Assembly: GCF_017876575.1 (NCBI RefSeq)
Contig: NZ_JAGIOE010000001.1
Coordinates: 1,612,001-1,676,000 of the forward strand
Direction: 5' to 3'
Source of the DNA: Paeniglutamicibacter psychrophenolicus
GTDB lineage: Bacteria > Actinomycetota > Actinomycetes > Actinomycetales > Micrococcaceae
Length of the DNA: 64,000 bases
Part shown: piece by piece, positions 1 through 19,799 of the stretch
How the letters are laid out: every line of letters starts with the position of its first letter
How positions within the stretch are numbered: the stretch's first letter is position 1
Made by a program: the position numbers and the translations under genes
Notes under the pieces: generated by a model
What the model was told of the DNA's origin: nothing
Database searches by the model: none
Seen by the model: the letters and a program-made list of their open reading frames with translations, nothing else

Positions 1-934
1 CATAGACCTTGCGCCGGCCGATTTTGTCGGACAGGTGACCAAAGAACAGGGTCATGCCGAACGAGAAGAGCATCGAGAGCATGACACCGGCAAGCAAGAT
101 GCCCCTGTCGACGCCAACGTGCACACCGTAGACGATTGAGAACGAAAGGAAGAGGTATGAACCACCATTCTCGGCAACGCGCAGTCCCATTCCCACGAGG
201 ATTTCTTTGGGGTGGGTTTTGATGGCTTCGATGAACGGGAGCCGGTGGCTAGTTGCCTGGGCATCGCCTTTCTTGAAGTCCTGGTTATCAGGCAATCGGA
301 ATCGAATGTACATCCCAACACCGAAGATCAGCACGGAAAGCAGGAATGGGAGACGCCAACCCCAGCTAAGGAACTGTTCCTCTGGCAACAGCTGAACCAG
401 GAAGAACGCACCCGCTGATAAGACGAAGCCGAGCGAGACGCCGGACTGGCTGAAGGCAGAGAGCAGCCCCCGGCGGCTGCTGCCCGTGTTCTCGCTAATC
501 AGCAGGACACCTCCGCCCCATTCGCCGCCGGCAGCGATGCCTTGCACTACGCGGAGGACAAGGAGAAGGATCGGGGCAAAGATTCCGATTTGGGCGTAGG
601 TCGGCAGCAATCCCATGATGAATGTCGCAGCACCCATGATTGAAAGAGTGAGGACCAATGAGGTCTTGCGGCTAATCTTGTCCCCAATGTGGCCGAAAAT
701 GATTCCGCCAATTGGCCGGGCCGCGAAGCCGACGGCAAATCCTGCGAAAGCGCCCATCGTGGCGACGAGTGGATCTGTGTCAGGGGGAAAGAAGAGCTTG
801 CCTAGGACGAGCGAGGCGGCTGTTGCATAGAGAAAGAAGTCATACCATTCAAGGGCACTGCCGAACAATGAAGCCACAACGTACTGCTTGACGCTTTTCT
901 GGCCGCTGACGGCCGAAACTTTTGAGAAAGTCAT
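1..934 (-). CDS. MHS-family MFS transporter (organic/aromatic acid:H+ symporter), 3' end outside window
   Basis: The gene runs off the left edge, so about 311 N-terminal residues are visible. The start ATG at 934 is preceded by AGAGGAG at 9 nt. The protein begins MTFSKVSAVSGQKSVKQYVV and then shows the classic metabolite:H+ symporter features: SALEWYDFFLY in the first helix, the GHIGDKISRK loop after helix 2, and RVVQGIAAGGEWGG near helix 4. These mark the MHS branch (ShiA/ProP/KgtP type) that imports small organic acids across the inner membrane. It lies 48 bp downstream of the acyl-CoA ligase on the same strand and so probably shares its promoter and TGACGNNCGTCA operator. I infer uptake of an aromatic acid or indole derivative; the substrate cannot be read from the sequence. 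Confidence 0.85.
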   Translation of the reverse strand, partial: MTFSKVSAVSGQKSVKQYVVASLFGSALEWYDFFLYATAASLVLGKLFFPPDTDPLVATMGAFAGFAVGFAARPIGGIIFGHIGDKISRKTSLVLTLSIMGAATFIMGLLPTYAQIGIFAPILLLVLRVVQGIAAGGEWGGGVLLISENTGSSRRGLLSAFSQSGVSLGFVLSAGAFFLVQLLPEEQFLSWGWRLPFLLSVLIFGVGMYIRFRLPDNQDFKKGDAQATSHRLPFIEAIKTHPKEILVGMGLRVAENGGSYLFLSFSIVYGVHVGVDRGILLAGVMLSMLFSFGMTLFFGHLSDKIGRRKVY

Positions 935-982
935 GAGAATTCTCCTCTAAGGGTGGTTGCTTAAAGTGGTAGGGGGCCAGGT

Positions 983-2617
983 CTAGCGGACCAGTACGTA
1001 GCCTGAGTGCTCGCGGTCCCACGTGTTAGGCGTAATACCTGTCTCGCGCAGTTTGAACTTTCGGATTTTGCCGTTCTCAGTTGTAGGCAATGTGTTCACG
1101 AAATCGATAAATCGTGGCACGGCGAAATATGCGATGAGGGGCTGGCAGTGATCCATGAGCTCCGATGGCGTCAAGGTCGCATTGTCGTGCAGTATGACCG
1201 AGGCCATCACTTCATCTTCTGCGAGTTCCGATTTCACCGGGTAGACAGCGACGTTTTTCACTGCCGGATGTGTGCCAATAGCCTGCTCGACTTCATACGA
1301 CGAGATGTTCTCTCCGCGGCGTCGGATTACGTCCTTGATCCGGTCCATGAACCTGAAGTATCCGTCGACGTCTTGGATAACACGGTCGCCAGTATGGAGC
1401 CAGAGGTTCCTCCAACTTTCAACCGTCTTGTCGGGCATTCCGAAGTATCCGGTTGCGAATGCAAAACTGTCGCTGGCGCGAAGCAGCAACTCGCCAGGTG
1501 TGCCAATGGACACTTCAACGTCGAGTTCGTCGACAATTCTTGCTTCGAAGCCCGGGCGGAGCTTCCCCATCGTGCCGCGCTTTCGCTCGGACTGGGGGGA
1601 ACCAATCACGAAGTTCGATTCTGTGGAGGCAAATCCGTCGAGTAGGACGGTCCCAAATCTTTCTTCGAACTCGCTGGCCGCTTCGGCCGGAACACCAGGT
1701 GCAAGAATGACCCGCAGGCCATGATCGTTGTCGTTCTCCGTTTTCGGTGTAGACAACAGAATTGGAACCATCGCACCTAAAAGATACGTCACCGTGGCAC
1801 CCGAATTCTGGATGGAGCGCAGAAACCCCGAGGCAGAGAATTTCGTTTCAACGAAAATCGAAGATCCAGTTAGCAGTGCTTGGAAGAAGGTGCTCAAGGC
1901 ATTCGTGTGGAACAACGGGAGCGTGGTGAGCAACTTATCGCCTTGAACAATCTCCAGGATGTTGGCGTTGTGGAATGCCCACCAGAAATATTGGGCGTGC
2001 GCACAGATTACGCCCTTGGAAACCCCGGTGGTCCCGGACGTGTACAAGATGGCCAGGGGGTCGCTTGGAGCTAGCAGCGGTCTTGGCGCAGCCGATGATG
2101 CAAGCTGCCACGCTGCGGATCGGGTTGAATTGATAAGCAGATCCGGCTGTTCTTCCTTTTCCCCGATGGAAAGGACCGCAGTCAACTGAATCCGAGACTG
2201 GTCAATAAGTTCAAGTCTCGAGAGAAACGTCGCCTCGGCCACGAGAAGTTCTGCCCCGCTGTTTTCGAGCATGTGCTGGAGTTGGGTACCTCTGATCGCG
2301 GTATTCAACGGCACTGTAATGGCTCCCAGCCAGGCGGCGCCCAAGAAAACCTCGAAGAATTCGGGGCGATTACCGCAAACTAATGCGACTCTATCGCCCT
2401 TTGATACACCGGCAAGATGCAATGTTTGCGCGCCGCGTGAGGCAATCGAGATGGCTTCCGAGTAGGTGACTCGTTTCCCATGAAATTCATAGAGCACGCG
2501 ATCGCCAAATCGAAGAGCTTGCGCCTGCAACATCACCGGCAGCGTTCGATCTTCCACTGCAAATTCACGTGTGAGCGCGTCCCAGGGAAGCGGTGTTGAG
2601 ATCGTATTGTGGGGCAT
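983..2617 (-). CDS. AMP-forming acyl-CoA synthetase (CaiC/fatty-acid--CoA ligase-like)
   Basis: ANL-superfamily adenylating enzyme of 544 residues. The P-loop-like signature LYTSGTTGVSKGV sits near residue 200, followed by the acceptor region TTLPLFHTNALS, the A5 motif DGFASTE, LHTGD and the C-terminal RIKDVIRRRGENIS hinge with the catalytic-lysine region TTENGKIRK. It should form an acyl-adenylate and then a CoA thioester in the cytoplasm. The spacing PLNTAIRG and the GMPDKT region resemble CaiC (crotonobetaine/carnitine-CoA ligase), so the acid need not be aromatic. I chose ATG 2617, which has GGAG 9 nt upstream, over an in-frame TTG at 2638. GC content and codon bias are visibly lower than in the genes after 3.1 kb. 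It is first in a two-gene unit with the MHS transporter. Confidence 0.85.
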   Translation of the reverse strand: MPHNTISTPLPWDALTREFAVEDRTLPVMLQAQALRFGDRVLYEFHGKRVTYSEAISIASRGAQTLHLAGVSKGDRVALVCGNRPEFFEVFLGAAWLGAITVPLNTAIRGTQLQHMLENSGAELLVAEATFLSRLELIDQSRIQLTAVLSIGEKEEQPDLLINSTRSAAWQLASSAAPRPLLAPSDPLAILYTSGTTGVSKGVICAHAQYFWWAFHNANILEIVQGDKLLTTLPLFHTNALSTFFQALLTGSSIFVETKFSASGFLRSIQNSGATVTYLLGAMVPILLSTPKTENDNDHGLRVILAPGVPAEAASEFEERFGTVLLDGFASTESNFVIGSPQSERKRGTMGKLRPGFEARIVDELDVEVSIGTPGELLLRASDSFAFATGYFGMPDKTVESWRNLWLHTGDRVIQDVDGYFRFMDRIKDVIRRRGENISSYEVEQAIGTHPAVKNVAVYPVKSELAEDEVMASVILHDNATLTPSELMDHCQPLIAYFAVPRFIDFVNTLPTTENGKIRKFKLRETGITPNTWDREHSGYVLVR

Positions 2618-2660
2618 CGGTGGTAACTCCGTTTCCAAATGAGGCTTGCGTCACAGCGAA

Positions 2661-2688
2661 GCTATAGCAACGGCTTGACGGTCGTCAA
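2661..2688 (-). promoter_or_regulatory. Promoter and PaaX-type operator upstream of the acyl-CoA ligase
   Basis: On the minus strand TTGACG (2688-2683), a 16-nt spacer and TATAGC (2666-2661) form a good sigma-70-type promoter, predicting a start near 2654 and a leader of about 37 nt. The palindrome TGACGGTCGTCA at 2676-2687 includes most of the -35 hexamer, so a bound protein would block RNA polymerase. The same core is found at 3046-3057 and, with one mismatch, at 12228-12239. Confidence 0.7.
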
Positions 2689-3044
2689 TGAGGCGGGATC
2701 GATTCCGTGTCTTTGGCCGTCGGTGGGGGCTTGGGCCTGGGGCGGCGATGGGGAGGGTGCTCGCCCCTGAATTCGTCGCCCTAGGGTCGATATGGGCGTT
2801 GGCGGGAGAGCTTGTCATGGCCTAAATAGGCAATCTGATTTGGAATGATGCAAAAATATGCGAATCACGCGAGTGCGTTGGCGGGCGACGGCGGAGAGTG
2901 ATTTTGGGCGCGAAGCTCCAGACTGTGGGGTTAGCATTTTCGTTACCGATAGGCCGAAAGTGTAATGGCTCTCCGTTGCCGCAGGCTTCATTTTCACTTG
3001 TCGAATTCCAGTGCGCTGATAGATTGAATCCCAAGCGAAGAGTG

Positions 3045-3074
3045 GTGACGATCGTCACTCATCTTCGATATATA
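3045..3074 (+). promoter_or_regulatory. Promoter and PaaX-type operator upstream of the isatin hydrolase-like operon
   Basis: GTGACGATCGTCAC at 3045-3058 is a perfect 14-bp palindrome. Its first six bases can act as the -35 element, with TATATA at 3069-3074 as the -10 (spacer 18). Seven bases after the -10 gives a predicted start at 3081, which puts the palindrome core (3046-3057) at -35 to -24. This is the position I recall for MeqR2 on upper-pathway promoters of an Arthrobacter quinaldine plasmid. The transcription start itself is predicted, not measured. Confidence 0.7.
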
Positions 3075-3123
3075 TTCCTTATCGGGCACGAAGCTGCCCT
3101 CACGCCTGAACACTGGAGATTCG

Positions 3124-3900
3124 ATGAGTCCTGTACATGAAGTCCTGGCATCGCTGGCTACCGGCGCCGTTGAAGTCCTTGACCTGACGGCGCCACTATC
3201 CGCCGATACCCCGACGTTGGTGCTGCCCGAGCCGTTCGCCAACCTGATCGATTTCCGCATCGACGAGGTCTCTGCCTACAACGAGCCCGGCCCGTACTGG
3301 AAGCACCACAACATCCACACCGGTGAGCACATCGGCACGCACATCGATGCCCCAATCCACTGGATCTCCGGCCGCGAGGGCAAGGACGTCTCCCAGCTCG
3401 ATCCAGCACGCCTGGTCGGCCCCGCGGTGGTCCTGGACTTCAGCGAGCAATCATCCGCGGACCCCGATTTCCTGATCGACGTCGAGCACCTGGTGACCTG
3501 GCAGGAGGAGCACGGAGCCTTCCCCGCCAATGCGTGGTTGCTCTTCCGCACCGGGTGGGACCAGTACGGGCACGACAAGCAGGCATTTCTGAATCTGGAC
3601 GAGACCGGATCCCACACCCCGGGCTTCACCGCCGAGTGCGCGAAATGGATCGCTGAGGAACTCGATATCTCCGGCGTCGGGGTGGAAACCGTGGGCATCG
3701 ACGCCGGGAACGCCGGGGCGCTGAACCCGCCGTTCCCGATGCACTACTTCCTGCTGGGCGCCGACAAATACGGGATCACCTCGCTGAAGAACCTGGACAA
3801 GCTGCCCACCCACGGGGCCATGATCATGGTGGCCCCGCTGCCGATCGTCGGCGGAACCGGCGCCCCGACCCGCGTGCTGGCCATGGTCGGAAGGAGCTGA
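3124..3900 (+). CDS. Cyclase-family metal hydrolase, likely isatin hydrolase
   Basis: A 258-residue protein of the cyclase family (PF04199), which includes kynurenine formamidase and isatin hydrolase. The metal motif is clear at about residues 66-79: HTGEHIGTHIDAPIHW, the HxGTHxDxPxH signature. The N-terminal LPEPFAN segment and the C-terminal PPFPMHYFLLGADKYGI segment look to me more like bacterial isatin hydrolases than formamidases. Isatin hydrolase opens the lactam ring of isatin to isatinate (2-aminophenylglyoxylate). The ATG has GGAG 5 nt upstream. The next gene starts 2 nt after this stop and encodes a ThDP enzyme that could decarboxylate an arylglyoxylate, and anthranilate genes follow. 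The family call is firm; isatin as substrate is inferred from residue pattern and context. Confidence 0.8.
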   Translation: MSPVHEVLASLATGAVEVLDLTAPLSADTPTLVLPEPFANLIDFRIDEVSAYNEPGPYWKHHNIHTGEHIGTHIDAPIHWISGREGKDVSQLDPARLVGPAVVLDFSEQSSADPDFLIDVEHLVTWQEEHGAFPANAWLLFRTGWDQYGHDKQAFLNLDETGSHTPGFTAECAKWIAEELDISGVGVETVGIDAGNAGALNPPFPMHYFLLGADKYGITSLKNLDKLPTHGAMIMVAPLPIVGGTGAPTRVLAMVGRS

Positions 3901-3902
3901 CC

Positions 3903-5561
3903 ATGAACGTTGCACAACTTGTCGGCAAGACCCTGGCCGAGCTCGGCGTCGGCCACTGCTTCGGAGTGGTGGGCTCGGGCAACTTCACCATCACCAACAC
4001 CCTGGTCGAACACGGGGTTCCCTTCACCGCGGCCCGGCACGAGGGCGGGGCCGCCACCATGGCCGATGCCTACTCCCGGGCCAGCGGGCAGGTGGCCCTG
4101 CTCTCGGTGCACCAGGGCTGCGGGCTGACCAACGCGGCAACCGGCATCGGGGAGGCGGCCAAGTCCCGCACCCCGATGATCGTGCTGGCTGCCGAGGCGG
4201 CGCCATCCGCGGTTTACTCGAACTTCGCCATGGACCAGGACGCCTTCGCTGCCTCGGTCTACGCCATCCCGGAACGGGTCCACAGCGCAGCAAGCGCGGT
4301 GGCGGACACGGTGCGTGCCTACCGCCGCGCGGTGAACGACCGCCGCACCGTCGTGTTGAACCTGCCGTTGAATGTCCAGGCACAAGAAGCCACGGACGAG
4401 CAGTCCCGTGCGTCGGCGTCCATGGCACCGGCCGAACCGATCCGGCCCTCGCGCGCCTCGGTGGAGGCCCTCACGGAGCTGATCGGCAAGGCCACGCGCC
4501 CGGTGTTCGTCGCCGGCCGCGGCGGGCGCGGGGCCCGGGACGAGATCCTGGACCTGGCGAAGCACGCCGGTGCCCTGGTGGCGACCTCCGCGGTGGCCAA
4601 GGGCCTGTTCAACGAGGACGAGTTCAACCTGGGCATCTCCGGCGGGTTCTCCTCGCCGCTCGCGGCCGAGCTGATCACCGACGCGGATCTCATCATCGGC
4701 TTCGGCTGCGCGCTGAACATGTGGACCATGCGCCACGGGCACCTGATCGGCACCGGCACCAGGGTCGTCCAGGTCGACCTCGAGGAACAAGCGCTGGGTG
4801 CCAACCGGCCCATCGACCTGGGAATCGTGGGGGACTCGGCGCAGTGCGCGGCAGACGTGCTCGAAGAGCTCGTCGGTCGAAACATTCAGGCCCGCGAGGG
4901 CTACCGCACCGTCGCCGTTGCCGCGCGCATCAAGGAATCCATCGACTGGAACCAGGTTGACTTCGATGACCTGTCCGACGCTCGGCTCATCGACCCGCGC
5001 GCGCTGACCAAGCGCCTTGACGAGATGCTTCCGGCCGAGCGCATCGTCAGCGTGGACTCGGGGAACTTCATGGGCTACCCCAGCCAGTACCTCTCCGTGC
5101 CCGACGAATTCGGCTTCTGCTTCACCCAGGCGTTCCAGTCCATCGGGCTGGGCCTGTACACGGCCATCGGCGCGGGCCTGGCGCAGCCCGGACGCATGCC
5201 GGTGCTGGGCACCGGTGACGGCGGTTTCCACATGGCCATCGCCGAGCTGGACACCGCGGTGCGGCTGGGCATGCCGCTGGTCTGCATCGTCTACAACGAC
5301 GCGGCCTACGGCGCCGAAGTGCACCACTTCGGGACCGGGAACCCGGAAGCGGACATGGGCATCGTGCAATTCCCGGACACCGACTTCGCCGCCATCGGCC
5401 GCGGCTTCGGCGCCGACGGGATCACGGTGCGCACGCTCGCGGACCTGGACGCGGTGCAGGCATGGCTGGATTCGGGCCCGGGCAGGCCGCTGGTCATCGA
5501 CGCGAAGATCGCCTCGGACTCGGGCGCCTGGTGGCTCGCGGAGGCCTTCAAGGGGCACTAA
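3903..5561 (+). CDS. Thiamine diphosphate-dependent decarboxylase-like enzyme, candidate isatinate decarboxylase
   Basis: A 552-residue ThDP enzyme of the acetolactate synthase/benzoylformate decarboxylase superfamily. The N-terminal Pyr domain carries the cofactor-activating glutamate region in RHEGGAATMADAYSRAS (about residues 41-57). A central Rossmann-like domain covers about 190-330. The C-terminal PP domain has GTGDGGFHMAIAELDTA and then YNDAAYG, the GDG-N metal-diphosphate motif. AAGGAG lies 6 nt before the ATG and 2 nt separate it from the isatin hydrolase-like gene, so the two are co-transcribed. Isatinate is 2-aminophenylglyoxylate, an analogue of benzoylformate, so decarboxylation towards anthranilate (or 2-aminobenzaldehyde) fits. 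The specific substrate is inference; other 2-oxo acids remain possible. Confidence 0.8.
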   Translation: MNVAQLVGKTLAELGVGHCFGVVGSGNFTITNTLVEHGVPFTAARHEGGAATMADAYSRASGQVALLSVHQGCGLTNAATGIGEAAKSRTPMIVLAAEAAPSAVYSNFAMDQDAFAASVYAIPERVHSAASAVADTVRAYRRAVNDRRTVVLNLPLNVQAQEATDEQSRASASMAPAEPIRPSRASVEALTELIGKATRPVFVAGRGGRGARDEILDLAKHAGALVATSAVAKGLFNEDEFNLGISGGFSSPLAAELITDADLIIGFGCALNMWTMRHGHLIGTGTRVVQVDLEEQALGANRPIDLGIVGDSAQCAADVLEELVGRNIQAREGYRTVAVAARIKESIDWNQVDFDDLSDARLIDPRALTKRLDEMLPAERIVSVDSGNFMGYPSQYLSVPDEFGFCFTQAFQSIGLGLYTAIGAGLAQPGRMPVLGTGDGGFHMAIAELDTAVRLGMPLVCIVYNDAAYGAEVHHFGTGNPEADMGIVQFPDTDFAAIGRGFGADGITVRTLADLDAVQAWLDSGPGRPLVIDAKIASDSGAWWLAEAFKGH

Positions 5562-5582
5562 GGCAATCGCCCGGAATCACCG

Positions 5583-5627
5583 GCGCGGAGTGCCGGGTGG
5601 GAAACGTTCCCCGCCGGCACTCCGCGC
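5583..5627 (+). terminator. Strong hairpin terminator after the ThDP enzyme
   Basis: Arms GCGCGGAGTGCCGG (5583-5596) and CCGGCACTCCGCGC (5614-5627) pair perfectly over 14 bp with a 17-nt loop, followed by ATTTCGG. It lies 21 bp past the stop of the plus-strand operon. The U-tract is short, as is common in high-GC actinobacteria. Confidence 0.75.
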
Positions 5628-5680
5628 ATTTCGGTGTCTTCTGCATGGCGCCGCTCCGGATCTTGGCGGGAATGCACAGA

Positions 5681-5721
5681 GGGAGCGGCTCGACCCGCTC
5701 CACGCGAATCGAGCCACTCCC
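5681..5721 (-). terminator. Hairpin terminator of the anthranilate operon
   Basis: GGGAGCGGCTCGA (5681-5693) pairs with TCGAGCCACTCCC (5709-5721) over 13 bp with one mismatch. It sits 15 bp beyond the stop of the minus-strand oxygenase gene and faces the plus-strand terminator at 5583-5627, separating two convergent units. Confidence 0.6.
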
Positions 5722-5736
5722 GCCCTGCTTCCGATG

Positions 5737-8133
5737 CTAGACGCTCGGCACCAGGTTCTTAGTTGCCTTGTCCTTGGCCGGGGTCCAGCGCAGATGGACC
5801 TGCTCGTCGATCTGCTCTTCCTTCAGCAGCGAGAGGCGCGGGCGGACCGCGTCGGTGCGGGCGCTGGGCGGCTTGCGGCGCCCGGCCTTGAACGGCAGCG
5901 GCCAGGTGGCACCGGCACCGACGTAGTCCTGCTCGGCCGCTGCCTGCAGCGTCCACTGCGGGTTGTACAGGTGTGTGCGGCCCAGAGCGACCAGGTCCGC
6001 GCGTCCCGCCAGCAGGATCGAGTTCACGTCGTCGTAGGAGGAGATCGCCCCGACCGCGATGACCGCGACGCCCGCCGCCGCCGCGACCTGGTTGCGGATC
6101 TTGTCCGCGAACGGGGTCTGGTAGCTGCGCCCGAACGCGGGGCGTTCATTGCGCACGATCTGACCGGAGGACACGTCGATGGACTTGACCCCGTGCTCGA
6201 TGAACGCCTGGGCGATGACCAGCGCGTCGTCCTCGGTGTTCCCGCCCTCGGTCCAGTCGGTGGCGGAGATGCGCACGCCGATGGGCTTGTGCGCCGGCCA
6301 CGCCTCGCGCACCGCATCGAGCACCTCGAGCGGGTAGCGCAGGCGGTTCTGAAGCGATCCGCCGTACTCGTCGGGGCGCTTGTTCGACAGCGGGGAAAGG
6401 AAGGAGGAAAGCAGGTAGCCGTGGGCCGCGTGCAGCTCCAGCAGGTCGAAGCCCGCCGCATCGGCCCGGCGCGCGGCGGCCACAAACTCATCGCGGACCG
6501 TATCCATCGCGGCGCGGTCCATTTCCACCGGGACGTGGCAGCCCTCGCCGTAGGGGATCGCGCTGGGTGCCAGCACCTCCCAGTTGCCGGTCTCCAGGGG
6601 CTCGTCGATGCCCTCCCACATGAGCCTGGTGGAGCCCTTGCGGCCGGAGTGGCCGATCTGCGCGCCGATCTTGGCGTTGGAGTTGGAGTGCACGTACTCG
6701 GTGATGCGCTTCCACGCGCTGCCCTGTTCGTCGGTGTACAGGCCGGTGCAGCCCGGGGTGATGCGCCCGATGTCCGAGACGCAGACCATTTCGGTCATGA
6801 CCAAACCGGCGCCGCCCATGGCCTTGGAGCCCAGGTGCACCAGGTGGAAATCCCCGGGGACGCCGTCGGTCGCGGAGTACATGTCCATGGGGGAGACGAC
6901 CACGCGGTTGGCTAGTTCCAGCTCGCCGATCTTGTACGGCTGGAACATGGCCGGTGCGGTCTCCGCGGAGCCGGCCAGGCGGGCGAAGTCGGCATCGACC
7001 TTCGCGGCGAAGCCGGTGTCGCGCAGCTTCAGGTTCTCGTAGGTGATGCGGCGGGAGCGGGTGAGCAGGTTGAAACAGAACTGCACCGGGTCCTGGTCCT
7101 TGTACTGCCCGATGTTCTCGAACCACTCCAGCGAGGCCTGGGCCGCACGCTGGGTCGATGCCACCACCGGGCGGCGCTCGGTCTCGTAGGCGGCAAGGGC
7201 GGCCGCGACGGAAACGTGTTCGTGCAGGCAGGCGGCCAGGGCCAGGGAGTCCTCCATGGCCAGTTTGGTGCCCGAGCCGATGGAGAAGTGTGCGGTGTGC
7301 GCGGCATCCCCGAGCAGCACGATGTTCTCGTGGCGCCAGTTTTCGTTCCGCACGGTGGTGAAGTTGATCCACTTCGAGTTGTTGGTCAGCACGTTGTAGC
7401 CGGCCAGTTCCTCGGCGAAGATCTCCTTGACCTTGGCCACCGCCTTTTCGTCGCTCACCCCGGGGGCGAAGACCTCGTGCTGGGTCTCGTCGAAGCCGGC
7501 GGCGCGCCAGACGTCCTCGTGCATTTCCACGATGAAGGTCGAGCCCGTCTCCGAGTAGGGGTAGCCATGGATCTGCATGGTCCCGGCGTCGGTTTCCTTG
7601 ACGAAGAACTTGAACGCCTCGAAGACCTGGTCGGTGCCCAGCCACATGTACTTGGAGGTGCGCGCATCGAGGGATGGCTTGAAGGACCCGGCGAAGCGGG
7701 TGCGGATCGCGGAGTTCAACCCGTCCGCGGCCAGCACCAGGTCATGGTTTGCCGACAGCTCTTCGACGTCCGGGGCGATGGTGGAGAAGCGCACGTCGAC
7801 GCCCAGTTCGATGGCGCGGCGCTGCAGCAGCTGAAGCAGTTCCTTGCGGCTCATGGCGGCAAAGCCCTGACCGCCCACGGTGTGCATCTGCCCGCGGAAG
7901 TGGATGTCGATGTCACTCCAGCGGGCGAAGCGCCGGGACATGTAGTCGGCAATGACGGTGTCGGCGTTGCCGATGCCGCCAAGGGTTTCGTCCGAGAAAA
8001 CGACGCCGAAGCCGAAGGTGTCCGATGCCGCGTTGCGCTCCCAGACGGTGACCTCGTGGGAGGGATCAAGCTGCTTCATCAGGGACGCGAAGTACAGGCC
8101 GCCGGGGCCGCCGCCAACAACTGCAATTTTCAT
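5737..8133 (-). CDS. Bifunctional anthraniloyl-CoA monooxygenase/reductase (salicylyl-CoA 5-hydroxylase-like fused to old yellow enzyme)
   Basis: A 798-residue fusion. Residues 1 to about 370 form a class-A flavoprotein hydroxylase with the FAD motif VVGGGPGG at the N-terminus and the GDAAHTAHFSIGSG flavin motif near 290. From about 395 an NADH:flavin oxidoreductase (OYE) barrel starts at FQPYKIGELELANRVV, with LHAAHGYLLSSFLSP and RPDEYGGS typical of that family. This architecture is known from 2-aminobenzoyl-CoA monooxygenase/reductase and salicylyl-CoA 5-hydroxylase, which act on ring position 5 of the CoA thioester using O2 and NAD(P)H. It is last in the operon, 100 bp after the CoA ligase, with GAAAGGA about 8 nt before the ATG. 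Anthraniloyl-CoA as substrate follows from the regulator motif, RidA and isatin genes; salicylyl-CoA is the main alternative. Confidence 0.88.
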   Translation of the reverse strand: MKIAVVGGGPGGLYFASLMKQLDPSHEVTVWERNAASDTFGFGVVFSDETLGGIGNADTVIADYMSRRFARWSDIDIHFRGQMHTVGGQGFAAMSRKELLQLLQRRAIELGVDVRFSTIAPDVEELSANHDLVLAADGLNSAIRTRFAGSFKPSLDARTSKYMWLGTDQVFEAFKFFVKETDAGTMQIHGYPYSETGSTFIVEMHEDVWRAAGFDETQHEVFAPGVSDEKAVAKVKEIFAEELAGYNVLTNNSKWINFTTVRNENWRHENIVLLGDAAHTAHFSIGSGTKLAMEDSLALAACLHEHVSVAAALAAYETERRPVVASTQRAAQASLEWFENIGQYKDQDPVQFCFNLLTRSRRITYENLKLRDTGFAAKVDADFARLAGSAETAPAMFQPYKIGELELANRVVVSPMDMYSATDGVPGDFHLVHLGSKAMGGAGLVMTEMVCVSDIGRITPGCTGLYTDEQGSAWKRITEYVHSNSNAKIGAQIGHSGRKGSTRLMWEGIDEPLETGNWEVLAPSAIPYGEGCHVPVEMDRAAMDTVRDEFVAAARRADAAGFDLLELHAAHGYLLSSFLSPLSNKRPDEYGGSLQNRLRYPLEVLDAVREAWPAHKPIGVRISATDWTEGGNTEDDALVIAQAFIEHGVKSIDVSSGQIVRNERPAFGRSYQTPFADKIRNQVAAAAGVAVIAVGAISSYDDVNSILLAGRADLVALGRTHLYNPQWTLQAAAEQDYVGAGATWPLPFKAGRRKPPSARTDAVRPRLSLLKEEQIDEQVHLRWTPAKDKATKNLVPSV

Positions 8134-8233
8134 GTCTGGGTCCTTTCAGGGGTCGGCAGGGCTGCGGCGGCCGGGGCTGATCCCGGGGCCGTGCGGTGCT
8201 GACAGGGGGGGTGGGGAAGAATAGGGAAAGTGG

Positions 8234-9865
8234 TTAGGAGGCCGGGGATTGGGCCAATGCCTCGCGCAGCTTGAAGTGCTGGAGCTTGCCGCTGGGGTTG
8301 CGGGGCAGCTCATCGACGAAGCGGACCTCGCGCGGGTACTTGTACGGTGCGATGACGGTCTTGACGAAGTCCTGGAGTTCCTTGGCCTTCTCGGGCGAAC
8401 CGGTGACCCCGTCGACCAGCACCACGAAGGCGCAGACCACCGAGCCGCGGTGTTCGTCGGGCCGTGCGACGACGGCGGTTTCCATCACGTCTGGGTGCTG
8501 GATGATGGCTTCCTCGACCTCGGGCCCGCCGATGTTGTAGCCGGAGGAAATGATCATGTTGTCGCTGCGTGCCTGGTAGGTGAAGTAGCCGTCGGCGTCG
8601 CGCACGAAGGTGTCCCCGGTGACGTTCCAGCCGTTGGAAACGTAGGCGTGCTGGCGCTCGTCATCGAGGTACCGGCAGCCCGTGGGGCCGATGACCGCGA
8701 GGCGCCCGACCTCGTCCGGCCCGAGTTCGTTGCCGTCAAGGTCAAGAATCGTTGCGCGGTAGCCGGGGACCGCCGTCCCGGTGGTGCCGGGGCGGATGTC
8801 CGCCCCGGCGGCGGAGATGAACACGTGCAGCAGCTCGGTCGAACCGATCCCGTCGATCAGCTCCAGACCGGTGGCGTCCTTGACAGCCTCCCAGGTGGCC
8901 GCCGGAAGGTGTTCGCCGGCCGAGACGGCGATGCGCAGCGGGCGCAGCAACTCGGCCTTGCCCTCCTTGAGGATGGCGCGGTAGGCGGTGGGTGCCGTGA
9001 AGAGGATCGTGGCACCGGCGTCGTGGGAGAACTGCGCCAGCTCCACCGGGGTGGTGCGCTCGGTGAGCAGGGTGCTGGCGCCGAAGCGCAGCGGGAAGAC
9101 GACCAGCCCGCCCAGGCCAAAGGTGAAGGCCAGGGGAGGAGAGCCTGCGAATACGTCGTCGGGCGTCGGGGCCAGGATGTGCCGGGCGAAGGTGTCCGCG
9201 TTGGCCAGGATGTCGCGGTGGAAGTGCATGGTGATCTTCGGGACCCCGGTGGTCCCGGAGGTCGGGCCCAGCAGGGCCACGTCGTCGGCCGCGGTGTCGA
9301 CGTTGGCGAACTCGCCGGACCTGGAGCCGGAGAGCGCCACCAGATCCGCCGGGTCCTGGGATCCGACTGCCACGACGGGGTAGGAGGAACCCGCGGCGTC
9401 GCGGGCGTCATCCAGGAAGCGGTGGTCGCACAGCATCAGGGCGGGTTTGGTCAGCTGGGCCAGCTTGGCGATTTCCGGGGCGCGCAGGGCAGGCATGGTG
9501 GTGACCACCACGGCGCCGGCCTTCAGAACCCCGAGCCAGCATGCCACGAGCCAGGCATTGTTGGGGGCCCGGAGCATGACCCGGTTTCCGGGGACGATCC
9601 CGAAGTCCTCGACCAGCACCTGGGCGACCTGGTTGGAACGGGTGAGCAGCTCCCCGTAGCTTTGCACGGTTCCGTCGGGAGCCAGCAGTGCCGGGGATTC
9701 GGCCCCGAACTTTGCCACGGCGTCGTCGATCAGCACCGTCGCGGCGTTGAGCCTTTCGGGGTATTGCAGCTCGGGCAGCGTGAACTCCAGGGTTGGCCAC
9801 AGCTCGTGTGGCGGCAGGTGGTCGCGCGTGAAGGTGTCTTGATGGGACGAAAGCGATAATTCCAT
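8234..9865 (-). CDS. Aromatic acid--CoA ligase, likely 2-aminobenzoate (anthranilate)-CoA ligase
   Basis: A 543-residue AMP-forming ligase of the benzoate/2-aminobenzoate-CoA ligase group. The adenylation signature is GPTSGTTGVPKITMHFHRDI near residues 190-210, followed by SAGEHLPAATW, the A5 motif GIGSTE, NVTGDTF, and the C-terminal SDNMIISSGYNIGGPEVE hinge and RNPSGKLQHFKLRE lysine region. The order and wording of these motifs are those of benzoate-type ligases rather than fatty-acyl ligases. It would activate anthranilate to the CoA thioester used by the downstream oxygenase. ATG 9865 is favoured; upstream in-frame sequence overlaps the thioesterase gene and lacks a ribosome site. It is fourth in the five-gene operon, 59 bp after the thioesterase. 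Confidence 0.87.
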   Translation of the reverse strand: MELSLSSHQDTFTRDHLPPHELWPTLEFTLPELQYPERLNAATVLIDDAVAKFGAESPALLAPDGTVQSYGELLTRSNQVAQVLVEDFGIVPGNRVMLRAPNNAWLVACWLGVLKAGAVVVTTMPALRAPEIAKLAQLTKPALMLCDHRFLDDARDAAGSSYPVVAVGSQDPADLVALSGSRSGEFANVDTAADDVALLGPTSGTTGVPKITMHFHRDILANADTFARHILAPTPDDVFAGSPPLAFTFGLGGLVVFPLRFGASTLLTERTTPVELAQFSHDAGATILFTAPTAYRAILKEGKAELLRPLRIAVSAGEHLPAATWEAVKDATGLELIDGIGSTELLHVFISAAGADIRPGTTGTAVPGYRATILDLDGNELGPDEVGRLAVIGPTGCRYLDDERQHAYVSNGWNVTGDTFVRDADGYFTYQARSDNMIISSGYNIGGPEVEEAIIQHPDVMETAVVARPDEHRGSVVCAFVVLVDGVTGSPEKAKELQDFVKTVIAPYKYPREVRFVDELPRNPSGKLQHFKLREALAQSPAS

Positions 9866-9924
9866 GAACTTGCCGTCTCTTTCCAGGAGTCGATTTTCAA
9901 GATTGCAATGGTGCTTGTGGTGCC

Positions 9925-10791
9925 TTAGCGCGGTCCGCGGATCATGCCCTCCTGGGCAACGGTGGCCAGCAGCCGGCCATCCCGGGTGTAGAAGCGGCCG
10001 ATGGCCAGGCCGCGGTTGTTTTGGCTGGAGATGGCTTCCTGGACGTAGAGCACCCAGTCGTCCACGCGCCCGCTGCGGTGGAACCACATGGAGTGGTCAA
10101 GGCTTGCGGTGACGAGCCCTTCGGTGCTCCAGGACAGGTTCTGGGTCCGCAACAGCGGTTCCAGGATGGTGTAGTCGCACACGTAGGCCAGGGCCGCGCG
10201 CTGGGTGATCTGGTCATCGGGAAGTTCGGTGAACGCCTTGACCCAGACCGCTTGGTGGGCCGAGGGCCTGCCGTCTACCTCGAGGTACAGGGCCCCGGGA
10301 ACGTGGCGCATGTCGAAAGACCGGCCGGTGGACCAGTACTCGGCGGCAGGGCCCTCGGCCGAGGCGAGGACGCTGGCCGCGCTGGCCAGGGTTTCGGGAT
10401 CCAGATCCAGGAATTCGGCCGGTGCCGTGGAGGACTGTTCGGGACCGGTTTCGGGTACGTGGAAGGAGCCCAGGGCGGTGTAGACGGCCTTGCCGTTCTG
10501 GAAGCCGCGGACCTGGCGGGTGGAGTAGCCGCGGCCATCGCGCATCAGCTCGACCTCGTAGCGGACCGGCACGTGCATGTCCACGGGGCGCAGGAAGTAG
10601 GAATGCATGGAATGCAGTTCCCGGTCCCCGTCGACCGAGCGCATCATGGCCGAGGCGCCCTGGGCCACCATGTCCCCGCCGTAGGCCTTGGGCCACGGAA
10701 CGTACTGGGGGATGGCGGTGAAAGCCGTGTCAAAGACCTCGGCTTCGCAAGCGGTCAAGTCAATGGCATCAAGGAAAATTTGTGAGCTCAT
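9925..10791 (-). CDS. TesB-type acyl-CoA thioesterase II
   Basis: A 288-residue double-hotdog thioesterase. YGGDMVAQGASAMMRSV near residue 37 and LHSMHSYFLRPVDMHVPV are typical of the first hotdog. In the second, LDHSMWFHRSGRVDDWVLY contains the conserved aspartate/serine region, and RGLAIGRFYTRDGRLLATVAQEG is the TesB C-terminal signature. It hydrolyses acyl-CoA to free acid and CoA. Its start codon overlaps the cupin stop (ATGA), so the two are translationally coupled. Inside an anthraniloyl-CoA operon the natural reading is release of the hydroxylated aromatic acid from CoA before ring cleavage; that role is inference. Confidence 0.85.
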   Translation of the reverse strand: MSSQIFLDAIDLTACEAEVFDTAFTAIPQYVPWPKAYGGDMVAQGASAMMRSVDGDRELHSMHSYFLRPVDMHVPVRYEVELMRDGRGYSTRQVRGFQNGKAVYTALGSFHVPETGPEQSSTAPAEFLDLDPETLASAASVLASAEGPAAEYWSTGRSFDMRHVPGALYLEVDGRPSAHQAVWVKAFTELPDDQITQRAALAYVCDYTILEPLLRTQNLSWSTEGLVTASLDHSMWFHRSGRVDDWVLYVQEAISSQNNRGLAIGRFYTRDGRLLATVAQEGMIRGPR

Positions 10792-11273
10792 GCCCGGCGG
10801 TATCCTTCCAGGGTTTCGTCGGCGACTTCTTCGAGGTTCACCACGATGTTTTCCGGGGTGCGGGCGGTGAGCCAGACGAGGTCCTCGGTGATCGACATGT
10901 TGGCCTCGACGTGCGGCATGAACGGAGGGACAAAGACCCAGTCGCCGGCGGTCATGTCCAGGAACTGCTCGTAGTTCTCGCCGAAGTAGATCCGGCCGTG
11001 GCCGCGCAGCACGTAGCCGCCGGTCTCCGCTTCGCCGTGGTGGTGGGGGAGGGACCGGTATCCGGGGGTGTTGGAGACCTGGCCGAACCAGAGCTTCGTG
11101 GCCGGTGTGTGCTGGATGCTGACCCCGGAGACGCGGATGCAGTCCCCGGATTGCGCGGTGTTGGTGTCTTCTTCGCCCTTGCGGGTGACCACGGGCACGA
11201 CGACTCCGTCGGAGTTGGCGTAGACGGTGTTCTCACCCTCGGTGCGGTAGATGGTGGGGGTCGGGTTGTTCAT
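10788..11273 (-). CDS. Single-domain cupin protein, candidate ring-cleavage dioxygenase
   Basis: A 161-residue cupin. Motif 1 reads LPHHHGEAETGGYVLRGHG (three consecutive histidines, then Glu), and motif 2 is GDWVFVPPFMPHVEAN with the fourth ligand histidine, so a mononuclear metal site looks complete. I chose ATG 11273 because AAGGAG lies 8 nt upstream; a longer frame from 11324 has no ribosome site. Gentisate dioxygenases are bicupins of about 350 residues, so this is not a standard one. It lies between the FAH hydrolase and the thioesterase, which suggests that it cleaves the ring of the hydroxylated aminobenzoate or binds an intermediate. The fold is certain, the catalytic role is inferred. 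Confidence 0.75.
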   Translation of the reverse strand: MNNPTPTIYRTEGENTVYANSDGVVVPVVTRKGEEDTNTAQSGDCIRVSGVSIQHTPATKLWFGQVSNTPGYRSLPHHHGEAETGGYVLRGHGRIYFGENYEQFLDMTAGDWVFVPPFMPHVEANMSITEDLVWLTARTPENIVVNLEEVADETLEGYRRA

Positions 11274-11329
11274 GGGCTTGGCTCCTTGGTCTGTGGCTGG
11301 ATGCATGGATGAGGTGGTTGTCATGTTGT

Positions 11330-12181
11330 CTAGAGTGAAGCGTTGATTCGCAGGCTGATGCGGTTGGACAGGGTTCCGATTCCGGGGATCTCGGTGACAA
11401 GCTCGTCCCCGTCCTTCAGGAAGCGCGGCGGGACCATGCCCATGCCGACCCCGCCGGGGGTTCCGGTGAGAACGACGTCGCCGGGGCGCAGCACGGTGAA
11501 GGTGGAGATGTAGGACAGGAGTTTGGCGGCGGAGAAGACCAGGGTCTTGGTGTTGCCGCGCTGGACCTCTTCGCCGTTGAGGGTGCAGATGACCTCGAGG
11601 CCGGCCTCCGGGTCCAGCGCGTCGGCGGTGACCAACACGGGGCCCAGTGGCGTTGTGCGGTCAAAGGCCTTGCCCTGGAACCACTGCAGTGTGCGGCGCT
11701 GCCAGTCGCGCATGGAAATGTCGTTGGCCACGGTGTAACCGGCGATGGCGGCTGCCGCCTCGTCCTCGGAGGCGTCCTTCAGGGTGGATCCGACAACCAC
11801 GGCCAGCTCGGCCTCCCAGTCCAGGTCCACCGATTCGTCGGCGACGATCGGGGCATCGGGGTCGGTGAGGGTGTCGGCGAACTTTGCAAAGAGCGTGGGG
11901 AATGAGGGGAGCTCGCGTCCCATTTCCAGGATGTGCTCCGAATAGTTCAGGCCGCAGCAAATGACCTTCGCCGGGCTCGGCACCGGGTTCAACAGCTCGA
12001 CCTCGGATGCGGGCAGGACATCGGGACCACAGTGGCCGGAAGAAGCTTCCTTGAGGATCGCCTTCCACCCGGGAAGGGCAAGCAACTCGCTGAGATTGCG
12101 TGCGGGCAGCGGCTGGTATCCGCCTGCCACCACCAATGCGGCGGTGGTGCGCCCACCATGTCGAACCGTTGCGAGTTTCAT
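11330..12181 (-). CDS. Fumarylacetoacetate hydrolase-family protein
   Basis: A 283-residue FAH-family enzyme. The N-terminal lid is followed by VICCGLNYSEHILEMGRELP and the metal-binding acidic residues in DLDWEAELAVVVG and GYTVANDISMRDWQ. TGTPGGVGMG is the conserved C-terminal substrate loop. The family cleaves C-C bonds in acylpyruvates such as fumarylpyruvate, maleylpyruvate or fumarylacetoacetate. ATG 12181 has GAAGGAG 8 nt upstream; a longer frame to 12301 would run through the promoter region. It is the first gene of the anthranilate operon, and its place suggests hydrolysis of the ring-cleaved keto acid to pyruvate and a C4 acid. Confidence 0.88.
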   Translation of the reverse strand: MKLATVRHGGRTTAALVVAGGYQPLPARNLSELLALPGWKAILKEASSGHCGPDVLPASEVELLNPVPSPAKVICCGLNYSEHILEMGRELPSFPTLFAKFADTLTDPDAPIVADESVDLDWEAELAVVVGSTLKDASEDEAAAAIAGYTVANDISMRDWQRRTLQWFQGKAFDRTTPLGPVLVTADALDPEAGLEVICTLNGEEVQRGNTKTLVFSAAKLLSYISTFTVLRPGDVVLTGTPGGVGMGMVPPRFLKDGDELVTEIPGIGTLSNRISLRINASL

Positions 12182-12226
12182 TCCTTGGGCTCCTTCGCCA
12201 TTCATCAAATCTACTGTGTCGACTTT

Positions 12227-12256
12227 TTGACTGCCGTCACGTATCCTCAATGTAAC
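12227..12256. promoter_or_regulatory. Divergent promoter region with a PaaX-type operator between the anthranilate operon and ridA
   Basis: TGACTGCCGTCA at 12228-12239 matches TGACGNNCGTCA at 9 of the 10 defined positions. Rightwards, TTGACT (12227-12232), 18 nt and TGTAAC (12251-12256) could serve ridA, with the operator on the -35. Leftwards, TACATT on the minus strand (12254-12249) would give a start near 12242, putting the operator at about +4 to +15. I recall that position for MeqR2 on its lower-pathway promoter. Promoter elements are predicted by eye. Confidence 0.6.
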
Positions 12257-12322
12257 ACGCATCACTAACCTGCGCCAGAGCGGAAGCCGCTCAACCGCCA
12301 CAAGAACCCACAGGAGAGCACG

Positions 12323-12742
12323 ATGACCGAAACCACCCTCATTCAGAACCTCACCATCAACCCCGATTCATTGGGCAAGCCCTCCGGATTTGCCCACGGC
12401 GTGCTCGCCGGCAAGACCGTGTACCTGGGTGGCCAGACGGCCCTGGACAAGGACATGAAGATCGTCCCGGGCAACATCGTGGACCAGTTCAAGCAGGCGT
12501 TCTCCAACGTCCTGGCAACACTCGTCGAGGCCGGCGGACAGCCCGAGGACCTGGTGTCGGTGACCATCTACCTCACCGATGTCGATGACTACCTGGCCAA
12601 CGGCCGCGAGATCGGCCGGCTCTGGCGCGAAATGGCAGGCAGCAAGTACCCGGCGCTCGCCGGCATCGGTGTCAGCCGCCTGTGGCAGCCGGAGGCACTC
12701 ATTGAGATCCAGGGCGTTGCGGTGATCCAGGACCGCGCCTAG
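12323..12742 (+). CDS. ridA: RidA-family enamine/imine deaminase
   Basis: A 139-residue RidA (YjgF/YER057c/UK114) protein. FAHGVLAGKTVYLGGQTALD is the N-terminal signature, and GVSRLWQPEALIEIQGVAV holds the arginine equivalent to the catalytic Arg of active deaminases. The family hydrolyses reactive enamines and imines to ketones and ammonia, usually as a trimer in the cytoplasm. CAGGAG lies 8 nt before the ATG. It is divergent from the anthranilate operon and shares its operator region, so a pathway-specific job is likely: removing the amino group from an enamine formed when an aminophenol ring is opened. It is unlikely to be only the housekeeping copy. Confidence 0.88.
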   Translation: MTETTLIQNLTINPDSLGKPSGFAHGVLAGKTVYLGGQTALDKDMKIVPGNIVDQFKQAFSNVLATLVEAGGQPEDLVSVTIYLTDVDDYLANGREIGRLWREMAGSKYPALAGIGVSRLWQPEALIEIQGVAVIQDRA

Positions 12743-12773
12743 ATAATCGGGCAGGCAAGAAGAGCAGATAGCC

Positions 12774-12837
12774 AAGGAAGCCGTGCTGCGCAACCATTTC
12801 CCCGCAAGGGGACGGTTGCACGGCACGGCTTCCTTTT
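12774..12837. terminator. Bidirectional terminator between ridA and the PaaX gene
   Basis: AAGGAAGCCGTGC (12774-12786) pairs with GCACGGCTTCCTT (12823-12835), and an inner CGCAACC/GGTTGC stem extends it. It is followed by TTTT on the plus strand. It lies between the convergent ridA and paaX-like genes. Confidence 0.75.
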
Positions 12838-12852
12838 GATGTGGGGGAGCAA

Positions 12853-13734
12853 CTAAGCGGTGACCGCGTGGTCGGCAATGGCGCGGTCGGCATGGCGCTG
12901 AGCACGTGGGGCCAGCAGGGTGTGGAGCTGCTGGAAGAGGTGCTCGGCCTCCAGGGCGTTCCAATTATCGGGCAGGAACTCGGTGGGTAGTCCCGGGTCG
13001 AGGTAGGGCAGGCGCCGCCACTGGGTGACCAGGACCAGGTAGTCGCCGAAGGCCCTGGCGTCGGAATCGGGATCGGCGTCGAACCCGTCGCGCTGGACCC
13101 ATGACTCCAGCAGCTCCCGGTTGTGCTCGAGGAAGTCCGAGTAAAGGGAATCCAGTGCCGGCAGGTCCCACCAGGATCCGATGTTCTTGTGCAGGTCGGC
13201 CCCGCCGACATGGTCGGCCATGAAGAATTCGAGGTACTCGTTCAGCCCGCGGGTGTCGAAATAGGCCAGCACTGCGTCGCGGAGGTGGCCCGGAGCGATC
13301 CACAGTCCCGGGGTCACCGAGCCGAAGCCCATACGCACCAGCGAGGAACGGATCTTGTGACGGATGTTGCGCTGGGACTCGGGGACCGTGAAGGTCGCCA
13401 GCAACCATTGATCGCCCTTCTTGGCCCGCCTGGGGTGGAAGATGCGTTCGTCGCCCTCGATGAACGTGGCGATGACCGAAGACGCCAAGGCATACCCGTT
13501 GCGGCCGTTGACCTGCACGCTGTCGATGACACCTCGCTTCTTCAGGCGGGAGATCGAGGACCTGGTACCAGTGGATTCGACCCCGATATCACGCATCAGG
13601 TCAATGATGGTGGCCACGGCCAAGGCACCGCCATGTTGGCGTGCGTACAGACCGAACAAAGAGACGATGAGCTGGTGGTGCCGAGGTACCGGGGTCTCAC
13701 TGGGGCCCTTGCGGTCACCTACGTGTGTGGTCAT
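12853..13734 (-). CDS. PaaX-family transcriptional repressor (MeqR2-like)
   Basis: A 293-residue PaaX-type regulator. The N-terminal winged helix covers LIVSLFGLYARQ through TRSSISRLKKRGVIDSV (about residues 22-75). The central PaaX domain includes ERIFHPRRAKKGDQWLLATF and MGFGSVTPGLWIAP, and the C-terminal domain ends with QWRRLPYLDPGLPTEFLP. PaaX proteins repress aromatic catabolic operons and are released by aryl-CoA ligands. The nearby palindromes match the site I recall for MeqR2, whose effector is anthraniloyl-CoA. I see no such palindrome in the 144 bp upstream of this gene, so autoregulation of the MeqR2 kind is not evident. Effector identity is inferred. Confidence 0.9.
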   Translation of the reverse strand: MTTHVGDRKGPSETPVPRHHQLIVSLFGLYARQHGGALAVATIIDLMRDIGVESTGTRSSISRLKKRGVIDSVQVNGRNGYALASSVIATFIEGDERIFHPRRAKKGDQWLLATFTVPESQRNIRHKIRSSLVRMGFGSVTPGLWIAPGHLRDAVLAYFDTRGLNEYLEFFMADHVGGADLHKNIGSWWDLPALDSLYSDFLEHNRELLESWVQRDGFDADPDSDARAFGDYLVLVTQWRRLPYLDPGLPTEFLPDNWNALEAEHLFQQLHTLLAPRAQRHADRAIADHAVTA

Positions 13735-19780: not shown

Positions 19781-19799
19781 GGTTGTTCCGTCCCGGTTC

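Follow-up and report, generated by a model that had tools for sequence, protein, structure and literature searches.

The iad loci of Variovorax, Bradyrhizobium and Roseibium, in which auxin is degraded by way of isatin, isatinate and anthranilate, and an operon of plasmid pAL1 of Arthrobacter sp. Rue61a, which is fed by quinaldine, are the described systems closest to a gene cluster at the left end of a 64-kb stretch of DNA (the window, G000:C1:1612001-1676000) in the 4.9-Mb genome of Paeniglutamicibacter psychrophenolicus. The cluster shares with the iad loci the thiolase-fold protein IadG, the DUF35 part of IadH, an isatin hydrolase in the position of IadI and a CoA ligase, and the same three intermediates are proposed for it, but it is without IadCDE, IadJ and the short-chain dehydrogenase/reductase (SDR) part of IadH, its ligase is a different one, LysR and PaaX regulators stand in for MarR, and a thiamine diphosphate (ThDP) enzyme stands in for the indolepyruvate-type oxidoreductase. 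We conclude with fair confidence that the cluster is a two-part catabolic regulon under PaaX, composed of an acquired operon for removal of the auxin side chain and resident genes for conversion of isatin to anthraniloyl-CoA; with this co-regulated set a soil bacterium would probably degrade oxidized remnants of auxin, as well as isatin, by way of anthranilate into central metabolism. The original prediction for this DNA listed the genes of the window part of the cluster, all of which are present at their positions as intact open reading frames (ORFs) whose families agree with family-model searches, and knew of no described actinobacterial cluster with just this composition; the lower half is in fact of the known Rue61a type, and it is the combination of known parts that is new.

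The first step of the predicted pathway would be formation of the CoA ester of an oxidized auxin, most likely dioxindole-3-acetate, by the acquired ligase (lig1), and the second would be retro-aldol cleavage of dioxindole-3-acetyl-CoA to isatin and acetyl-CoA by the thiolase-fold and DUF35 proteins. The resident isatin hydrolase would convert isatin to isatinate, the ThDP enzyme would take CO2 off isatinate to give anthranilate either directly or through 2-aminobenzaldehyde, and the resident ligase would convert anthranilate to anthraniloyl-CoA. A fusion of a flavin monooxygenase with an old yellow enzyme (FMO/OYE) may then hydroxylate anthraniloyl-CoA, a TesB thioesterase may free 5-hydroxyanthranilate, a cupin may open the ring, and RidA may deaminate and FAH hydrolyze the products. 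Until anthraniloyl-CoA accumulates, PaaX bound to TGACGNNCGTCA sites would shut the lig1, hydrolase, FAH/RidA and hotdog promoters. The types predicted for the isatin hydrolase and the anthranilate-CoA ligase are drawn from homology to assayed enzymes; the substrates of lig1 and of the aldolase, the product of the ThDP enzyme, all steps past the FMO/OYE, the regulator that binds the sites and its effector are what we infer.

The lower operon has the gene order of pAL1: PaaX, RidA, FAH, cupin, TesB, ligase, FMO/OYE. The PaaX-family repressor (12853..13734, minus strand) scores 146 bits against TIGR02277, which has a cut-off of 265, and is 53% and 50% identical to two PaaX proteins of pAL1. The identity to the pAL1 counterpart is 78% for the RidA-family protein of the enamine/imine deaminase type (12323..12742, plus strand), and, on the minus strand, 61% for the FAH-family hydrolase (11330..12181, family model), 82% for the cupin (10788..11324), 71% for the TesB-type acyl-CoA thioesterase (9925..10791, family models), 73% for the benzoate-CoA-ligase-like anthranilate-CoA ligase (8234..9865) and 76% for the fusion of an FAD monooxygenase with an old yellow enzyme, of the anthraniloyl-CoA monooxygenase/reductase type (5737..8133, above the cut-off of NF006101). 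The FAH and anthranilate ligase genes probably begin at 12181 and 9865, respectively, inside longer ORFs. According to the parts of PMC3534580 that deal with them, the pAL1 ligase has anthranilate-CoA ligase activity, and anthranilate-grown Rue61a cells contain anthraniloyl-CoA and masses of a presumed hydroxyanthraniloyl-CoA and a C7H8O4 ester; the assayed gene (ARUE_113p00220) was equated with the AMP-binding gene of pAL1 by its place beside the FMO/OYE gene. The window ligase is predicted to have the activity of its assayed homolog, and the anthraniloyl-CoA operon of the original prediction is thereby sustained, by gene order and by this ligase. Beyond the FMO/OYE, the presence of TesB, cupin, RidA and FAH suggests release of 5-hydroxyanthranilate, ring cleavage and hydrolysis by a gentisate-like route. 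The cupin, a proposed ring-cleavage dioxygenase, retains a His/Glu metal-site pattern in 17 of 17 aligned sequences, and its comparison with solved structures gave no useful match, so that its part in ring cleavage is something we infer. Like the cluster, pAL1 has a hotdog gene (47% identity) and operator-like sites nearby; it differs in that a second PaaX gene and the hotdog gene come after the FMO/OYE gene, and in that the annotation of the 22 kb of pAL1 examined shows neither a hydrolase-ThDP pair nor an iad-type module.

The genes that would feed anthranilate into this operon encode an isatin hydrolase-like cyclic amidohydrolase (3124..3900, plus strand) and a ThDP enzyme with Pfam TPP N, M and C domains (3903..5561, plus strand), for which its pairing with the hydrolase suggests the function of isatinate decarboxylase or oxidase. 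The hydrolase matches isatin hydrolases of the PDB with E values of 4e-73 to 2e-65 and the kynurenine formamidase KynB with 5e-5, scores 31 bits against the NCBIfam arylformamidase model (cut-off 223), and is 47% identical to the hydrolase of the Roseibium aggregatum iad locus, the numbering of which fits LaIHA. These scores, and the absence of the I(L/I)E motif (GITS in its place), rule out kynurenine formamidase, against which the original prediction had set isatin hydrolase as a test. The LaIHA structure paper, in the text concerned with the definition of isatin hydrolases, gives a metal motif HxG[T/A]HxDxPxH and the signatures WxW/FxW and GLQC/GLAS (PMC6117287). The metal motif is present as HIGTHIDAPIH, and in an alignment of 52 rows, which includes the window protein and counts the Roseibium protein twice, the metal ligands His69, His73 and Asp75 and the proton-transfer residues His79, Asp193 and His207 are invariant. 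Neither signature is present: the pocket has WKH, with His at the place of LaIHA Trp61, and the other motif is GITS, differences from the A and B isatin hydrolases of Labrenzia and Ralstonia that weigh against the assignment. They are also what favors the alternative that the pair acts on some other cyclic amide, such as a substituted isatin, the more so as the pocket-place His occurs in 40 of the 52 rows and Thr for the Gln/Ala of GLQC/GLAS in 45; this alternative is nevertheless quite improbable, given the invariant metal ligands and Asp-His-His triad, the forms with WAW plus TS (L072, L073, L081) that bridge both hydrolase classes, and neighboring genes that handle indoles and anthraniloyl-CoA. 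We read the protein as belonging to a putative third sequence class, linked with the ThDP enzyme, that would act like an isatin hydrolase although it departs from the published signatures. In three genomes (G051:C18, locus L052; G095:C19, locus L054; G001:C1) an otherwise conserved hydrolase gene contains one in-frame TAG, due either to pseudogene formation or to sequencing error.

The hydrolase is present at an E value of 1e-50 or better in 83 of 295 genomes of the family, and in all 40 of the 85 other family places that were fetched for study of their neighborhoods, the hydrolase and ThDP genes start within about 4 kb of each other. The ThDP protein, used alone as a query of the phylum, is present in 21 of 396 genomes, its own counted, and in 19 of the 20 other loci found the hydrolase gene adjoins it (1.5-kb flanks); in the twentieth (L198) the contig stops inside the ThDP gene. 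The order and strand of the two genes vary among loci, from which it appears that the pair is kept by selection rather than as one inherited arrangement. In Deinococcus the pair is accompanied by an acyl-CoA dehydrogenase/hydratase set instead of the lower operon. Solved structures include no close relative of the ThDP enzyme (best E 1.6e-40). Isatinate as its substrate is supported by Tsukamurella and Alloyangia, in which an indolepyruvate-type ferredoxin oxidoreductase near the hydrolase takes the place of the ThDP enzyme: nothing in the Tsukamurella locus (L080) matches the ThDP enzyme, and in the Alloyangia stretch neither a ThDP enzyme nor a CoA ligase is annotated. The lack of a ligase in Alloyangia would be expected if the oxidoreductase yields anthraniloyl-CoA directly, and Tsukamurella has both. 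The ThDP step itself would give anthranilate either directly or via 2-aminobenzaldehyde; the latter would need an aldehyde dehydrogenase, and the lack of one in the cluster counts against that part of the pathway. In the literature searched, mostly papers available without subscription, nothing was recognized on decarboxylation of isatinate by a ThDP enzyme. The Tsukamurella locus (L080:7925-13864) also has a nitrilase-like protein along with the hydrolase and the oxidoreductase, above a lower operon of the same type.

To the left of the hydrolase lies the upper operon, on the minus strand, with lig1, an ATP-dependent acyl-CoA ligase above the cut-off of NF004808, as its first gene (983..2638). 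The next, an MHS-family metabolite/H+ symporter (window 1..934; 384 bits against TIGR00883, cut-off 443), is cut by the window edge, and the whole gene was located in the left flank at L002:14570-15934 (window position equals L002 position minus 15000). Thus, the genes of the cluster are where the original prediction placed them, but its left end is not, as the operon runs past window base 1 into same-strand genes for a thiolase-fold protein (L002:13398-14573), which overlaps the MHS gene by 4 bp, and a DUF35 protein (L002:12781-13437; DUF35/ChsH2, PF12172). Farther left, family searches identified a LysR gene (L002:11568-12515, plus strand), a hotdog gene (L002:10702-11202, plus strand) and an AAHS transporter (L002:9264-10607, minus strand). 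The thiolase-fold protein is 62.6% identical over 382 amino acids to the Roseibium protein in the position of IadG, and the DUF35 protein matches, with 40% identity, the N-part of Roseibium IadH, in which a DUF35 part is fused to an SDR part. IadH carries the annotation of an SDR at L079:14164-15420, and the text passages on iad in PMC12633357 do not mention its DUF35 half. Points against the proposed explanation are that the DUF35 protein of the window genome lacks the SDR part, iadH being needed in Variovorax (passages of PMC12633357), and that lig1 and Roseibium IadF share no more than 30% identity. The ligase is of a different subgroup, with 54% identity to ligases on rhizobial plasmids that also bear IadG.

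The best reading is that the lig1-MHS-thiolase-DUF35 operon was acquired and joined to a widespread, resident hydrolase-ThDP pair and a resident lower operon. The GC content at third codon positions (GC3) is 0.60-0.69 in the LysR, DUF35, thiolase, MHS and lig1 genes and 0.79-0.91 in the nine genes from hydrolase to PaaX. The hotdog gene (0.62) and a 2-hydroxyacid dehydrogenase gene at 13879 (0.71) are also low, a point against acquisition, and GC3 alone therefore fails to mark the acquired block. In the close relatives L035, L039, L044, L045 and L049 the hotdog and hydrolase genes adjoin, so that the upper block sits as an insertion between them. Of the 396 genomes searched in the order, two have the thiolase at E 1e-60, one of them being its own; a more distant copy of G226 (L060) is outside this count. 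Thiolase, ligase, hydrolase and ThDP enzyme also come together at loci where the searched stretch gave no match to IadD: L060 and L065, in two other genomes of the same family as the window genome, and loci of Rhodococcus R138, Nonomuraea and Agrobacterium pusense.

When named genomes were scanned for IadG, there were 589 matches, the best 80 of which, a selection that favors near relatives, yielded 80 loci; counts are for the 56 of at least 19 kb, the other 24 being left out. An IadH-type DUF35 protein is present in 56 of these 56 and isatin hydrolase in 55, a Rieske protein with 45% or more identity to IadD in 28, an indolepyruvate-type oxidoreductase in 22 and the window type of ThDP enzyme in none. 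One of the IadG loci (L148), in a record titled Frankia sp. RB7, is rhizobia-like and has no IadD match; the assembly is possibly mislabelled or mixed. Copies of trpC stand near ligase or thiolase genes at L077:27065-27856 and L085:22354-23139, and perhaps recycle anthranilate into tryptophan.

The two parts of the cluster are connected by palindromes of the TGACGNNCGTCA type that precede lig1, the hydrolase gene, FAH/RidA and the hotdog gene. Perfect copies lie before lig1 (TGACGGTCGTCA, 2676..2687) and before the hydrolase gene (TGACGATCGTCA, 3046..3057), and copies with one mismatch lie between FAH and RidA (TGACTGCCGTCA, 12228..12239) and before the hotdog gene (TGACGTGCGTAA, L002:10684-10695). 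Only eight perfect sites exist in the genome, and two of them are 370 bp apart in the lig1-hydrolase gap, with a Poisson chance of about 3e-7 for a gap that was chosen after the fact. Of 40 loci, 13 have a slightly widened pattern within 300 bp before the hydrolase gene; over the same distance the pattern precedes RidA in 6 of 11 loci and AAHS in 0 of 18, on a background of 0.01 per 300 bp that includes the counted sites. The hydrolase site is found in 12 of 19 loci with the lower operon nearby and 1 of 21 others (Fisher p 1e-4), and a one-mismatch site lies at the hotdog promoter in 13 of 14 loci examined, out of 20 with a hotdog match, a count with no shuffle control; the AAHS-hotdog gap holds the one-mismatch form only, counted from the hotdog side. 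On pAL1 a perfect copy lies in the gap that separates the second PaaX gene from hotdog, and a copy with one mismatch precedes FAH. Set against these observations, five matches with at most one mismatch in the 64-kb window are no excess over the 3.2 expected, so the case for an operator rests on place and conservation, and the strict site is absent before the hydrolase gene in 27 of 40 loci, 20 of which have no lower operon nearby. A regulator shared by the predicted operator copies is likely, as the regulon of the original prediction had it. The putative binder would be PaaX, with anthraniloyl-CoA as its effector; MeqR2, a PaaX-type protein of Rue61a, reportedly binds such a motif and responds to anthraniloyl-CoA. 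Nothing was recognized in the searched literature on a TGACGNNCGTCA-type operator. The locus hints at the way in which a resident regulon may take in an imported module.

The original prediction took isatin or indole to be the outside substrate, in which case the ligase/thiolase block would serve something else. StyA-like proteins upstream of the same hydrolase pair in 10 of 40 family loci fit entry from indole, but nothing in the window genome matches the StyA part, lig1, the first gene of the block, bears the same kind of operator site, and isatin hydrolase accompanies nearly all the long IadG loci counted above, so that we consider isatin or indole rather unlikely as the outside substrate. 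The claim is changed accordingly: because the upper operon corresponds to the side-chain part of the iad auxin loci, it is more likely that isatin arises within the pathway, from dioxindole-3-acetate. According to a portion of PMC8383072, cells of another auxin degrader contained dioxindole-3-acetate together with isatin, isatinate and anthranilate. In the parts of a 2018 review of indole concerned with these routes, it is asked whether isatin takes part in bacterial degradation of indole, and the gene for the gentisate route from anthranilate is said not to have been revealed (PMC6221969); the window locus and its relatives supply candidate genes for both questions.

A difficulty for dioxindole-3-acetate as the substrate is that no oxygenase that would make it was recognized in the genome with IadCDE, StyA-like and one flavin monooxygenase as queries. 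The genome has three Rieske-alpha matches, none in the window and only 25-32% identical to IadD in the aligned parts, and IadCDE was rejected; entry from indole through a StyA-like monooxygenase was rejected as well, all matches being to the flavin-reductase domain; and a Caballeronia-type two-component flavin monooxygenase, a single query run with no positive control, found no match at E 1e-20. Either some unrecognized oxygenase is present or auxin is taken up already oxidized.

Other loci differ in what precedes the shared genes. The StyA-like proteins of the family are 18 members of one cluster, upstream of the hydrolase pair in the 10 loci mentioned; at L038:3603-9170 the region upstream of the hydrolase-ThDP pair encodes two of these flavoproteins, one of which has a fused flavin reductase, along with an SDR and a CrtO-like FAD protein, and this set, the families of which were checked in L038, with similar genes in nine other family loci, is likely an entry module from indole to isatin. 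In Caballeronia (L085:5886-15349), ligase, MFS, thiolase and zinc ribbon genes are near a two-component flavin monooxygenase (HsaA-like protein and flavin reductase), a possible third entry step. In a set of 79 IadG loci at least 10 kb long, taken from L087-L166 (the best 80 of 589) together with L077, L079, L083, L084 and L086, an Asp/Glu racemase-family protein is present in 19 of 39 without a Rieske gene in the stretch and 8 of 40 with one (p 0.009), and an OsmC-family protein in 14 of 39 and 1 of 40 (p 1e-4), each family being checked on one representative. These proteins perhaps deal with oxindole-3-acetate and its hydroperoxide; neither is found beside the window module.

The solved proteins nearest to the thiolase-fold protein include the aldolases CtSal-ShyDUF35 (9myr, the best PDB match; profile E 1.5e-70) and Ltp2-ChsH2DUF35 (6ok1) of steroid degradation, which share with it the thiolase fold, a DUF35 partner and the Tyr of a YDxx motif. 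In the pertinent part of PMC12329534, CtSal is described as having Tyr302 and Cys304 with Gln347 and Gln352, and Gly at the place of the nucleophilic Cys of thiolases. All 11 IadG-type proteins that were aligned have Tyr283, Asp284, Asp285, Tyr286, Gln328, Gln333 and Gly86-Gly87: the catalytic Tyr of the motif is present as YDDYP, with the DUF35 gene next door, and in the alignment with CtSal, Gly86-Gly87 falls where thiolases bear the nucleophilic Cys. The general acid, Cys304 in Sal or Tyr344 in Ltp2, is not kept, Asp285 being at the place of Cys304 and Gln333 at that of Gln352/Tyr344; Asp thus replaces the acid Cys of Sal or the His of YDHF in Ltp2, and the predicted substrate is an oxindole. 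The retained Tyr, the lack of the thiolase nucleophile and the beta-hydroxy group of dioxindole-3-acetyl-CoA lead to the reading as an aldolase.

The IpfDE proteins of ibuprofen degradation, of which we take IpfE to be a DUF35 protein, offer the same succession of CoA ligase and retro-aldolase. The text of PMC9195938 on this step describes, for ibuprofen, a thiolase-type retro-aldolase whose substrate is an aromatic CoA ester, with ipfDE after a CoA ligase. IadG is called a ketothiolase in the iad preprint, the main text of which gave no match to the word aldol (PMC12633357); the literature search also recognized nothing on an aldol route in iad. On the route proposed for Variovorax, IadG-type proteins are thiolases that, together with the SDR, remove the side chain reductively to leave dioxindole. 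Accumulation of C8H7NO2 without IadI and the need for iadH, as reported in passages of the same preprint, accord with that route, which we judge unlikely because Gly-Gly, in the alignment with CtSal, occupies the place of the nucleophilic Cys and the aldolase Tyr and both Gln are kept, because dioxindole-3-acetyl-CoA is no beta-keto ester, and because the IadH counterpart of the window genome is without an SDR part. Tentatively, then, and well short of firm expectation, IadG with the DUF35 part of IadH may generally be a redox-neutral retro-aldolase that splits dioxindole-3-acetyl-CoA into isatin and acetyl-CoA, with loci like this one living on auxin oxidized beforehand by plants or neighbors; if true, this would revise the published iad route. 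For iad bacteria, which alter the growth of plant roots, the locus allows a stringent test of the way in which the side chain of auxin is lost.

A search of plasmids for near-identity returned nine records, with 60-80% at the best place in each. Elsewhere in the window, at 18446-20564, the gene for an NtaA/DmoA-type flavin monooxygenase adjoins that of a FabG-like SDR, forming a small pair of catabolic appearance.

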